64,000 bases of DNA from Candidatus Proruminimicrobium quisquiliarum (GTDB lineage Bacteria > Elusimicrobiota > Endomicrobiia > Endomicrobiales > Endomicrobiaceae): NCBI GenBank assembly GCA_018433245.1, contig JAHDRN010000014.1, positions 1 through 64,000 on the forward strand, read 5' to 3'. Shown one piece after another: positions 5,885-14,116 of the stretch. The notes beneath the pieces were generated by a model. The model ran no database searches. It was not told the origin of the DNA and saw only the letters and a program-made list of their open reading frames with translations. Made by a program: the position numbers and the translations under genes. Position 1 is the stretch's first letter; every line of letters starts with the position of its first letter.

Positions 5885-6103
5885 ATGGGTAAAAAATTAG
5901 TTCGTATTCCAAAAGAAAAAATAGTCGCCGGCATAATAGCTGGCATTGCAGATTATTTTAATATTGACAGAACATTTCTAAGATTGGTTTTTATATTCAT
6001 TGTTTTAATAACGGGTTTTTTTCCTATGGTTTTACTTTATATAATCGCATATTTTATTATGCCCGTATCGGATGACACGGATTCTTCAAACTTCATAAAA
6101 TAA
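5885..6103 (+). CDS. PspC-domain small membrane protein
   Basis: The 72-residue protein matches the PspC fold: a short N-terminal segment (LVRIPKEKIVAGIIAGIADYFNID, with the usual GVxxGxAxYF pattern) followed by one hydrophobic segment (about 33-60) ending in MPVSDD. PspC proteins are inner-membrane components of phage-shock-type envelope-stress responses, but many stand-alone copies have no defined role, and no pspA/pspB lies nearby. CGGAGG precedes the ATG by five bases, and a TATAAT lies at 5851-5856. The next gene follows after six bases, so the two are probably co-transcribed. Confidence 0.85.
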   Translation: MGKKLVRIPKEKIVAGIIAGIADYFNIDRTFLRLVFIFIVLITGFFPMVLLYIIAYFIMPVSDDTDSSNFIK

Positions 6104-6109
6104 AGGCAA

Positions 6110-7168
6110 ATGAATAACAAACATATTGAAATCGCAAAAAAACTTATAGAACAATCAAACAACAGAATATTTACTGTTATAAGCGACAGTATGTCTCCGT
6201 TGATACTAAAAGGCGACAATATAATTTGCAATGCCGTTGATATTGACAAAATAAAGAAGTATTCGTTAATAGCTTTCCATAACGATTTGCACAATAAAAC
6301 CGTTCCTACCGTCCACAGAGTAATAAAGATACTCAAAACGACAAACGGCATCGCGTTAAAAACAAAAGGAGATTTAAATTCCATATGCGATAAAACATCC
6401 GTAACTCGAGACAGCCTTATAGGAGTCGTTTCAAAAATTACCGGTGACGGCAAAACAATATCTCTTGATTCCTGCTACGGAAAAACATTAAGTATTTTTT
6501 TATATTTCATTTCAAATTTTAATAATTATTTTAAGTTTATAACGTCAAAATTAAAGATTCTTTTTATGCCTGAAAAAGAGCCTGATTATAAAAATAACCT
6601 GCAAATAATACACCAATCAATTCTTATAAACACTCGGGATTGGACGAATACGGCAAAAATAAATATAGATTTACTAAAGCAATTTATTAATAAAGAAACT
6701 GAAATCTGCGATATATCCTTTGACGGCGGGTACTGCGAAGAAAGTTTTAATTTTATAAGACATGGTTTGAAAGTAGACTGCAATAAAATATCATCATTTA
6801 TTCCTTCAGACAAAAAATATGATATCGTCATCTGCTCAAAAGTGTTAAATTTGGCGGAAAATAAGCAAAAAAGACAGGAAATTTACGGTTTTATAAAACA
6901 AATTTTAAAAAAAGACGGATATATTTTATTATCCTATATAAATAAAAAAAACAACTTTATTGTTTCTCTTAAAAGACAGATATTTTCGTTGTCAAAAATT
7001 TACAATGGCCCCAAAAAAGACGATTTGATTTATAACGGTTTTTTTGTAATGAAATATCTTAACGGCAAAAATATTAAAAAAGAACTCACAGACAATGATT
7101 TTTTAATTGAGCAAAGAATTTTATCCGATAATACAGTTTCTTTATTTTTAAAACTAAATTTAAAATAA
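6110..7168 (+). CDS. S26-type signal-peptidase domain fused to a methyltransferase-like domain
   Basis: Residues 15-125 look like an S24/S26 signal-peptidase domain of the archaeal/ER (Ser-His) kind: SDSMSP with Ser27, TVHRVI with His69, and the TKGDLN..D motif. A hydrophobic stretch (about 125-150) follows. Residues 190-352 resemble a Rossmann-type SAM methyltransferase: a degenerate motif I (CDISFDGGY), then YDIVICSKVLNLAE and ILKKDGYILLSY, a typical motif IV/post-VI pattern. The protein is 352 residues and co-directional with the PspC gene. It abuts queH tail to tail with one base between. The peptidase could be inactive, and the methyltransferase glycine loop is weak, so activity of either half is inferred. 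I know of no named family with this architecture. Confidence 0.7.
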   Translation: MNNKHIEIAKKLIEQSNNRIFTVISDSMSPLILKGDNIICNAVDIDKIKKYSLIAFHNDLHNKTVPTVHRVIKILKTTNGIALKTKGDLNSICDKTSVTRDSLIGVVSKITGDGKTISLDSCYGKTLSIFLYFISNFNNYFKFITSKLKILFMPEKEPDYKNNLQIIHQSILINTRDWTNTAKINIDLLKQFINKETEICDISFDGGYCEESFNFIRHGLKVDCNKISSFIPSDKKYDIVICSKVLNLAENKQKRQEIYGFIKQILKKDGYILLSYINKKNNFIVSLKRQIFSLSKIYNGPKKDDLIYNGFFVMKYLNGKNIKKELTDNDFLIEQRILSDNTVSLFLKLNLK

Positions 7169-8773: not shown

Positions 8774-9838
8774 TTAGTTTTTTGCAGTAGCAGTTGATGT
8801 CGCTTGAATATGATTATACAATATTTGAGCTATTTCTTTATTAGCTTTGGCCGTAGGATGTCCATCTGGCAGTTGATATTCTTCCCTTTTTAAATAAAAG
8901 TGTGCTTTTAGAAATATAACATCAAATTTTTCTTTCATTAATTTATCTAAAATTTGTGACTGAACAACTGGCCAAGCAATTATAGTTAATTTGGAATTAT
9001 ATTTCTCTTTTATAATTTTTTCTATTTCTTTTAAAGACTGTATTTCATAATCAATATAAAATTTTTCATTATATTTATCAATTACCGGTAAAAATATCTT
9101 TCTAAATATATAACTGCGTGCAAAAATAATTTTAAATAAACCTAACGGCTGTTTAACCCTGTTATATTCACCATTTTCATATATCATATTATCTGAAGGG
9201 TCTAAAATTCTAAAATTTCTGGGAATATGATCATAAATTAGAAAATAAAAAAAATGATTTATCTTTTTATTCGGGCATAAATCATATACTAAATCATTAT
9301 TTAAAATATTTTTTGATGTGTTTATTGAATGACCTGGGATTCCGCAATTTATAACATTCGCCGTGAAATTCATTAACTTTGAAAAATAATATGTAACAGT
9401 ATTTTCATCATTTAATCCCGTCCCAAAAACAAAAGAACAACCTAAAAAAACATAAGTATTTTCGGAATTAATTTTACCTTTAGTATATCTTAATTTATTA
9501 TCATATTGAGAGTACACAACATCTTCTTCTTTTTCTAAATTATTTGTGAATCTGCGATTATTAATTCCTTTATCAAAAGTTATATTAATTGCATTAATAT
9601 TTTCTATGTGCTTTATTGTAAAAAACCAAGGAGTACTATAACTGTCCTTAAAAGATAAAATATATTCACAAATAGCTAGTGATAAAAATACCGAAAATGC
9701 TCCTAGTAAAACAATTCTAAATGTTTGTTTTTTTATATATGTAGTCAATATGAAAAATACTGTGCTGAAAAAGAAAAAAATAAATACAAATTCATAATTT
9801 AAAAATATATATGATATCGATTTTAATATATTATTCAT
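8774..9838 (-). CDS. membrane-anchored SGNH-hydrolase-like protein (copy A)
   Basis: The 354-residue product has two N-terminal hydrophobic segments (about 10-33 and 40-62) and a C-terminal domain with SGNH-hydrolase blocks: block [12 protein letters not shown] (Ser in GCS), an INCGIPGHS segment, and a terminal [13 protein letters not shown] (block V Asp-x-x-His type). Such proteins are often O-acetyl esterases or transferases acting on surface polysaccharide or lipid; the substrate is unknown. It is clearly paralogous to the gene at 12983-14116 (same blocks, same closing motif HPTAKAN, similar length). It sits between ruvA and ruvB and is more AT-rich than either. Confidence 0.75.
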
Positions 9839-12115: not shown

Positions 12116-12990
12116 TTCTTTTTCTCCTGTTTTTTATCTTTTCGACCTGACTCACAAATTTTTTCTATTCTCCTTTTTATATTTTCTATTATCCAGTTAG
12201 GCGTTGAGGCTCCGGCCGTAATGCCTACCGTGGTTTTACTATTAAACCAAGATTTTTTTATTTCTTCAACATTTTCTATGTGATAAGTCTTTACAATTTT
12301 TGAACATATCTGATACAAACGTCTTGTGTTGCCTGAATTTTTACCGCCTATGACTATCATAATATCAACGGATTTTGCCAACCTTTCAGCAGCGCTTTGC
12401 CTGTCAAAAGTGGCCCGGCATATCGTGTTATAAATCTTAACTTTTGATATCCTTGAAATACATTCTACAATATTATTAAATTGTTTCGGACTTTGAGTAG
12501 TTTGACTAACAACGTGAATTACATCCGTTTTTCTGATTTTTTTAACATCTTTTTCCTCTTCAACAACAACGCATTTCCCTTTACCGTAGGATACCAAAGC
12601 AATAACTTCCGGATGTGTTTTTTCCCCGACAATTACAATTTGTTCGCTTTTATAACTTAATTTTTTAACTATATCCTGAGCCCTTTTTACAAAAGGGCAA
12701 GTCGCATCTATAACATCTATATTTTTTCTTTTTGACAGTTTTTCGTGAATCTTCTGTTCTATCCCGTGTGTTCTTAAAACGAGAATTCCTTTTCTTATTT
12801 TTGAATGATTCTCAATAACTTTTATCCCTTCTTTATCCAATCTTTTGACTTCCTGAGGATTATGAATCAAAGGTCCGAATGTATAAACTTTCTTATTATT
12901 GGCGGCGACTTTCTCGGCAAGCTCAATCGCTCTTTTTACGCCGAAACAAAAACCCGAGCTTTTGGCAATTTTTATTTGTTTTTTAATCAT
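12112..12990 (-). CDS. ispH: 4-hydroxy-3-methylbut-2-enyl diphosphate reductase
   Basis: IspH performs the last step of the MEP pathway, reducing HMBPP to IPP and DMAPP with a [4Fe-4S] cluster. The three cluster cysteines are in SSGFCFGVKRA, DATCPFVKRA and TICRATFDRQ; HTHPEV-type histidine segments (GEKTHPEV) and the GGKNSGNTRRLY substrate loop are present. I take the ATG at 12990, nine bases after AGAGG; an ATG two codons upstream is possible. The start overlaps the 3' end of the preceding SGNH gene, which has thus been inserted into the plsC-ispH pair without breaking coupling. Confidence 0.96.
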   Translation of the reverse strand: MIKKQIKIAKSSGFCFGVKRAIELAEKVAANNKKVYTFGPLIHNPQEVKRLDKEGIKVIENHSKIRKGILVLRTHGIEQKIHEKLSKRKNIDVIDATCPFVKRAQDIVKKLSYKSEQIVIVGEKTHPEVIALVSYGKGKCVVVEEEKDVKKIRKTDVIHVVSQTTQSPKQFNNIVECISRISKVKIYNTICRATFDRQSAAERLAKSVDIMIVIGGKNSGNTRRLYQICSKIVKTYHIENVEEIKKSWFNSKTTVGITAGASTPNWIIENIKRRIEKICESGRKDKKQEKKK

Positions 12991-14116
12991 CACCATCTGC
13001 CTCTGCAGCTATATTTTTATTTATATGATTATACAACAGTTCCGCAATTTCTTCATTTGCCTTTGCCGTAGGATGATCGTCATACGGTATTTTGTACTGG
13101 TTTTCATCTTCAAGCGGCTCAAAATAATCAGGGAGACTTATTATGTCGAATTTCTCGGACGCCAGCCTTTTTTTAAAACTCACATCAATCGAAGGCCATA
13201 CTATTATAGTAAAATCCGCCCCGTATTTTGATTTGGCCAAAGATCTTATTTCCTTCAGACTCTCAATCATATAATCTTCATAAAATCTTTCGTTCGACTG
13301 GTCTATTAAAGGCAAAAATATTTTTCTGAATATGTAACTTTTCGCAAAAATAATCTGTACCATTTCAAAAGGCTGTTTTGCCCTTGTCCATTTCCCGTCT
13401 TTATAAAGCCAGTTGTCGCTTCTGCCGTATTGTATGAAGTTAAAATTTCTCATTATCTGATCCGATATCAAAGAATAAATGAAATGTTTGTTTTTTGTTC
13501 TGCCGGCATATCTGTCAATAAGATTGCTGTTTAAAATATTCAACGAAAAATTCGTGCTTCTCCCTATCATGCCGCAGTTCAAAACATTTGATTTAAAACG
13601 CATCATTTTTGAAAAATAATACGGCAATGTCTGATCGTCATTAAGGCCTTCTCCGAAAGTGAAAGAACAGCCCAGAAAAATATAGGCATTTTTCGAGAAA
13701 AGATTGCCTTTTGTATATCTGAAAAAGGTGCCGAATACCGAATAATTCACGTCATAAATTTTATTGTATTGCTTCTTGCTTAAAAAAAGATCTTTTTCGG
13801 CTTCTTCTTTAAAAACATATCTCTTTTTTTGCCGGTCGTTTTCTTCTATATAAATTTTATGCTGAATATAAAATTTTTCTCTTTCGTCGGCAAGCTCTTT
13901 ATCTGGATCGGAATATCTGAATACGTCCATTTGAAAAGCAAGAACGATTTCAAAAAAACAAAGAACCGAAAAAACAGAAAATAAAACAAGGCAGATATTT
14001 TTCAAAAATCTTTTTTTGAAATAAAAAGACATTGCCAAAAAAATCAAACATCCGAATGAAAAAATGTATACGAAAAGATAATCCGTAATTACTTGATGCA
14101 AAAATTCAAGTTCCAT
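12983..14116 (-). CDS. membrane-anchored SGNH-hydrolase-like protein (copy B)
   Basis: The 377-residue protein is a paralogue of the copy between ruvA and ruvB. It has two N-terminal membrane segments (about 10-32 and 36-62), then SGNH blocks: FLGCSFTFGEGLND with the presumed nucleophile Ser, NCGMIGRSTN, and the closing DDHPTAKANEEIAELLYNH with the Asp/His pair. A charged insert (residues 75-115, rich in E and K) separates anchor and catalytic domain. It probably acts in the periplasm on a glycan or lipid ester, but this is inference. It lies between plsC and ispH, two bases after plsC. Confidence 0.75.
   Translation of the reverse strand: MELEFLHQVITDYLFVYIFSFGCLIFLAMSFYFKKRFLKNICLVLFSVFSVLCFFEIVLAFQMDVFRYSDPDKELADEREKFYIQHKIYIEENDRQKKRYVFKEEAEKDLFLSKKQYNKIYDVNYSVFGTFFRYTKGNLFSKNAYIFLGCSFTFGEGLNDDQTLPYYFSKMMRFKSNVLNCGMIGRSTNFSLNILNSNLIDRYAGRTKNKHFIYSLISDQIMRNFNFIQYGRSDNWLYKDGKWTRAKQPFEMVQIIFAKSYIFRKIFLPLIDQSNERFYEDYMIESLKEIRSLAKSKYGADFTIIVWPSIDVSFKKRLASEKFDIISLPDYFEPLEDENQYKIPYDDHPTAKANEEIAELLYNHINKNIAAEADGDD

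Follow-up and report, generated by a model that had tools for sequence, protein, structure and literature searches.

Classical S26 signal peptidases carry an N-terminal transmembrane anchor that places the domain on the export side. In RiPP pathways the leader-peptide protease is often the missing step, and the protease B2 of the lasso peptides belongs to the transglutaminase-like family. In lasso-peptide systems B2 acts on a leader held by a PqqD-like protein, B1 (PMC5067487), and fusions of RREs with glycosyltransferases have been reported by RRE-Finder (PMC7470986). The locus considered here lies in a 64,000-nucleotide stretch of DNA from an Elusimicrobiota genome (the whole of it referred to as the window). 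It encodes a real, conserved protein in which a signal peptidase-like domain of the S26B type is joined to a methyltransferase-fold domain. With about an even chance of being right, we propose that this S26B peptidase works in the cytosol, probably in association with the membrane, and cleaves a peptide bound to PqqD, the methyltransferase remnant serving as a docking or structural module.

A conserved peptidase/methyltransferase-fold fusion

The fusion gene codes, in this order, for an S26B-type peptidase domain, a weakly hydrophobic linker and a degenerate class I methyltransferase-fold domain. It follows pspC after a gap of 6 bp, a conserved neighbour that is present also where the fusion is absent, and the other genes around it are housekeeping only.

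5885..6103, + strand: pspC, 72 aa (Pfam PspC, 65.4 bits; synteny)
6110..7168, + strand: fusion gene, 352 aa, ATG at 6110 to stop at 7168 (ORF, family matches, homologous single ORFs in relatives)
6152..6442, + strand: S26B/archaeal-type signal peptidase domain, residues 15–111 (TIGR02228 and SEC11A/SEC11C matches)
6455..6604, + strand: fast-evolving linker with a weak hydrophobic segment, residues 116–165 (dN/dS; hydropathy)
6605..7165, + strand: degenerate class I methyltransferase-fold domain, residues 166–352, with family-invariant Trp178, Glu211 and Arg217 (Pfam, alignments, hhalign, spacing)

A sequence-only reading of this DNA had proposed such a joining of domains, leaving room for a sequence error should the homologues exist only as separate proteins. 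The same fusion, searched for in other genomes, was recovered as a single ORF in five members of the window's family f1, probably the Endomicrobiaceae (G001, G011, G020, G028 and G008), and in three other families of the same order (G061, G062 and G064), and split across two contigs in G024 (family f1, genus g9). Together with the window's own genome this makes ten carriers in a 96-genome class search, several of the compared genomes being drafts. Since the identical one-ORF layout recurs in four families of one Elusimicrobia order, a sequencing error or frameshift as the origin of the fusion is ruled out. The C-terminal domain was never found outside the fusion among 150 genomes of the phylum. 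Scans for close relatives returned only the gene's own record from genome contigs and none from viral contigs, and in a plasmid tblastn search with the fusion protein the only matches, confined to the S26 domain, were to signal peptidase I of haloarchaea. The earlier remark that no described family has this architecture agrees with the open-access literature, where no published S26–methyltransferase fusion or S26–PqqD pairing was found, although this is weak evidence of novelty.

Fourteen residues are invariant in the nine full-length proteins (alignment A1): S27, M28, L31, D36, H69, R70, T85, G87, D88, D94, G105, W178, E211 and R217. Between the window protein and its nearest relative (L002), dN/dS is 0.12 for the peptidase, 0.085 for the C-terminal domain and 0.38 for the linker, with dS near saturation; over close pairs the linker lies at ~0.35–0.38, as against 0.09–0.22 for the two domains. 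These ratios indicate purifying selection on both halves, and strong selection on the C-terminal one. As the latter is as constrained as the peptidase, it must serve some purpose, most likely not methylation.

A conserved peptidase site and an eroded cofactor site

The N-terminal piece scores 57.3 bits against NCBIfam TIGR02228 (sigpep_I_arch; curated cut-off 51.85). Its best matches among solved structures are human SEC11A and SEC11C (E ~1e-5), in alignments covering S27, H69 and the TKGD..D94 stretch.

6188..6190, + strand: Ser27 codon, predicted nucleophile (invariant in A1; pairs with the SGSM motif of SEC11A)
6314..6316, + strand: His69 codon, predicted general base (invariant in A1; pairs with VHRV of SEC11A)
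6362..6391, + strand: TKGDLNSICD, residues 85–94, with invariant acids Asp88 and Asp94 (T85, G87, D88 and D94 invariant in A1)

The peptidase site read earlier from Ser27 (SDSM), His69 (VHRV) and TKGD (85–88) thus lies where it was placed, and S27, H69, D88 and D94 are kept in nine proteins down to 20% identity.

The C-terminal half presents a different picture. Its fold was assigned by sequence comparison, an AlphaFold2 run with two sequences having given a model of mean pLDDT 34.5 that was not used. Pfam Methyltransf_31 matches at 27.5 bits (cut-off 27) over profile positions 61–124 only, the earlier part of the profile remaining unmatched. An hhalign comparison between a profile of nine C-terminal halves and one of Elusimicrobia methyltransferases is considerably stronger (probability 96.7%, E=4e-10), with shuffled controls scoring at most 16 and most individual real methyltransferases 30–59. 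The Rossmann methyltransferase fold suggested for this half is therefore upheld at the level of sequence profiles, and two elements of it can be located:

6710..6742, + strand: SAM motif I remnant D-I-S-F-D-G-G-Y-C-E-E, residues 201–211 (alignments A1 and A2; hhalign to methyltransferase motif I)
6818..6835, + strand: strand beta-4, YDIVIC, residues 237–242 (Methyltransf_31 match; spacing)

Strand beta-4 begins 52–58 residues past motif I in intact methyltransferases, but in the fusion family only 23–28 residues past the '..EE' end of the motif I remnant (27–32 past its last Gly position), and just 25 residues past the remnant in the window protein. All members of the family thus lack some 25 residues ahead of beta-4, comprising helix C and strand 3, which follow motif I and complete the SAM pocket. 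The SAM loop described earlier as weak is indeed so, reading DISFDGG instead of D-x-G-x-G-x-G with D in place of a glycine. In eight members the first glycine of the motif is replaced by Ser or His, with G-x-G kept in those other than the window protein, and in L007 the motif is unrecognisable. The strand-2 acid is absent in most members and is K in the window protein. The METHYLTRANSFERASE half is hence degenerate, having probably lost its cofactor site, and is probably not a working methyltransferase. The earlier interpretation as a modification enzyme is not supported, since every member of the family has lost, or keeps only in degraded form, the SAM-binding half of the fold (strand 3 with its neighbouring helix, the glycines of motif I and the acid of strand 2). 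Catalysis would therefore most likely reside in the peptidase half only.

A methyltransferase half devoid of catalytic features invites the thought that both halves are inert, the protein being a scaffold associated with PqqD to which peptides or glycan enzymes would bind at the membrane. Elsewhere in the phylum S26 domains are found joined to beta-helix-like repeats and to glycosyltransferases, as a binding module might be, but invariance of the peptidase Ser, His and Asp at 20% identity would be unexpected in a mere scaffold, and we consider this reading unlikely. The view of the sequence-only reading, a bifunctional enzyme whose peptidase half trims and whose methyltransferase half methylates the same peptide or lipid via SAM, can draw on the class I methyltransferase fold itself, on the acidic residue and two motif I glycines that most members retain (DISFGGG, ELHMGTG), and on L022/L083, 524 aa long and of the same class, in which an S26 domain is joined to an intact methyltransferase. 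Set against the loss of helix C and strand 3, the substitutions in the window protein and the missing motif I of L007, it seems to us quite unlikely. Moreover, the C-terminal domain resembles L022 no more than it does other methyltransferases, so that the fusion with an intact methyltransferase may have arisen separately; a shared origin of the two was considered and not established, the domain being no closer to L022 than to L068.

A hydrophobic segment had been noted between the two halves, and this description suits several of the more distant members, in which the segment is clearly hydrophobic (1.6–2.1), but not the window protein or its nearest relative, in which no 19-residue window of the ~125–150 segment exceeds a mean hydropathy of 1.1. 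At the N-terminus, alignment and a hydropathy scan revealed no hydrophobic segment or transmembrane anchor in any of the nine fusions, residues 1–20 being non-hydrophobic and followed at once by the catalytic domain in each of them. A soluble S24/S26-like domain without such an anchor, followed by a fast-evolving linker, recalls the LexA/UmuD-like (S24) autoproteases, in which case a signal-triggered cut in the protein's own linker would free the C-terminal domain; the Pfam S24 and S26 models score almost equally on the peptidase domain, both below cut-off. The S24-type Ser-Lys dyad is nevertheless missing, an invariant His (VHRV) occupying the base position, and signal peptidases, which use a Ser/His site, are the nearest families. 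Across the nine proteins of A1 the linker shows no conserved motif for cleavage, and the stand-alone S26 relatives found beside PqqD have nothing to free, leaving self-cleavage improbable.

Co-occurrence with PqqD

In the window's family the fusion is accompanied, at an unlinked site, by a separate gene for a PqqD protein (PF05402, 47.6 bits; 90 aa), which in the window's genome is found at G000:C31:157091, heading two surA-like genes and pdxA. A high-scoring PqqD occurs in exactly six of the 77 f1 genomes (G000, G001, G011, G020, G024 and G028), and every one of these has the fusion. Six of the seven f1 fusion carriers therefore also have PqqD, the seventh being G008, a 78% complete genome with a divergent fusion copy and no detectable PqqD; in another family, G062 (99% complete) likewise has the fusion without detectable PqqD. 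The chance of all six PqqD genomes falling among seven carriers of 77 is ~3e-8, by hand arithmetic that ignores relatedness, which weakens the figure. Genus g9 offers a closer comparison. In its carriers G024 and G028 the fusion directly follows pspC, whereas in G009, G018 and G036 pspC is followed by yfcE after a gap of ~12 bp, the fusion site being empty, and these three genomes also have no PqqD ahead of the surA-like gene. On a tree built from two genes, fusion and PqqD seem to have been lost in parallel several times, some of its branch support being low and G034 being placed by a paralogue, and the independent events behind the co-occurrence within f1 are few. Genus g9 has, in addition, a weaker type of PqqD (L113, L114) that is independent of the fusion; it is a protein of ~146 aa encoded between a kinase-like ORF and GT2 genes (L113 1674–2111, L114 5205–5639).

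In the window's family neither the fusion nor PqqD has a gene for a substrate peptide, a radical-SAM enzyme or a glycosyltransferase beside it, and no precursor-like candidate was found near the window's fusion gene or its PqqD. Farther along, the window holds a dense radical-SAM run (23582–46216), with six genes for proteins with B12-binding domains, three others, a U32 peptidase and further ORFs between, possibly a surface-glycan or peptide cluster. Paralogous membrane proteins sharing a 'YxFLGCSFxFGxGxN' motif, SGNH-hydrolase-like by eye, are encoded in the window (8774–9838 and 12983–14116) and also near the PqqD locus of relatives (L109 18607–19686, L110 7557–8408).

In other families the two components meet in cis. 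PqqD lies directly before the fusion in G061 (L084), where the order (some names by eye, here and in the next two clusters) is GT2-PqqD, two B12-radical-SAM genes, PqqD, fusion and a SPASM radical SAM. In G064 (L087) it lies two genes before the fusion, several B12-radical-SAM genes being followed by PqqD, GT2, fusion and radical SAM; one of these B12-radical-SAM genes, when tested, had TIGR03975 (RiPP C-methyltransferase) as its nearest NCBIfam model, below cut-off. In G075 (L083) PqqD shares a contig with the related S26–methyltransferase protein, in the order PqqD, GT2-PqqD, methyltransferase, GT1, the protein joining S26 to an intact methyltransferase, and an ABC exporter. Unfused S26 genes of 116–157 aa are found in four further stretches, accompanied by radical-SAM genes and either PqqD (L086 and L091) or weaker PqqD-like matches (L090 and L093). 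Overall, PqqD-like sequences (E<0.001) occur in 10 of 13 Elusimicrobia stretches of ~8–20 kb around S26-domain genes. A search of 15 stretches for short ORFs that resemble precursors, in having both a ribosome-binding site and the motif [YFW]xxPx[LIVM], gave three intergenic matches, all in PqqD–S26 clusters (L083, L084 and L086), the L086 ORF lying ~10 bp before the S26 gene.

Several features of these and other stretches may be recorded in their own right. L083 1384–2574 and L084 2857–4050 each encode a family 2 glycosyltransferase that ends in a PqqD domain scoring above the Pfam cut-off. The cassettes at L086 6210–9132 and L091 5130–8651 consist of a P-loop kinase-like ORF (by eye), PqqD, a radical SAM and a small S26-like peptidase; a giant secreted protein comes next in both, and the cassette of L086, but not of L091, includes a precursor-like 50-aa ORF (...KKPYKKPNIVSEKIIETAALACGKC...). 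In other Elusimicrobia an S26-like domain is fused via a hydrophobic segment to long beta-helix-like repeats (L024, L026, L028, L031, L032 and L037), whereas the cluster around the fusion in L087 encodes a beta-helix protein by a gene of its own.

That the PqqD link reflects shared ancestry only, the protein being a minor signal peptidase paralogue, would fit the patchiness of the fusion–PqqD pair and its concentration in three related genera, but is the least likely reading in view of the precise co-absence of the unlinked genes within genus g9 and the independent physical linkage of PqqD and S26 genes in several other families.

Proposed function and relation to known systems

The fusion comes and goes with a separate PqqD gene, which suggests the trimming of a carrier-bound ribosomal peptide. 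In the peptidase mechanism we favour, a PqqD-type peptide chaperone would bind a ribosomally made peptide or protein and present it as substrate; the S26B domain, located in the cytosol and perhaps in contact with the membrane via the linker, would cut it with Ser27, His69 and Asp; and the methyltransferase-derived domain, its SAM-binding part lost, would dock the substrate or a partner, or be structural. The cutting, the PqqD-bound substrate, the cytosolic location and the role of the C-terminal domain are what we infer from the comparisons above. More tentatively, the pair may represent a two-gene Elusimicrobia system, in which PqqD hands a ribosomal peptide to an S26B protease with a repurposed dock and of which one family keeps two unlinked genes without the radical-SAM tailoring cluster. 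If the proposal is correct, an S26B protease tied to PqqD, both adjacent and in trans, would be a new marker for genome mining, and the ER/archaeal signal-peptidase family would extend to cytosolic peptide maturation. A methyltransferase fold under strong selection after loss of its SAM half offers a testable case of an enzyme repurposed as a scaffold.

Compared with known systems, the protein shares with the S26B signal peptidases (SEC11A/SEC11C, archaeal signal peptidase I and Bacillus SipW; TIGR02228) the domain size and the Ser/His/Asp motifs (SxSM, VHRV, TKGDxN...D), but differs in its unanchored N-terminus, its degenerate methyltransferase fold and its genomic link to PqqD. Strands 4–5 of class I SAM methyltransferases (Pfam Methyltransf_31/23, UbiG-like) and their helices align with the C-terminal half, from which the strand 3 region is deleted and in which motif I is eroded. 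The proposed logic is that of lasso-peptide B1/B2 (PMC5067487), a PqqD-type protein holding the leader and a separate protease cutting it. Here the protease would be S26B-like, B2 being of a different family, and reading through the clusters brought no lasso cyclase to light. The PqqD/RRE–radical-SAM RiPP systems have the same PqqD, and their radical-SAM/SPASM enzymes and GT2-PqqD fusions stand beside distant members of the fusion family, whereas the window's family keeps only PqqD and the fusion, at unlinked sites.
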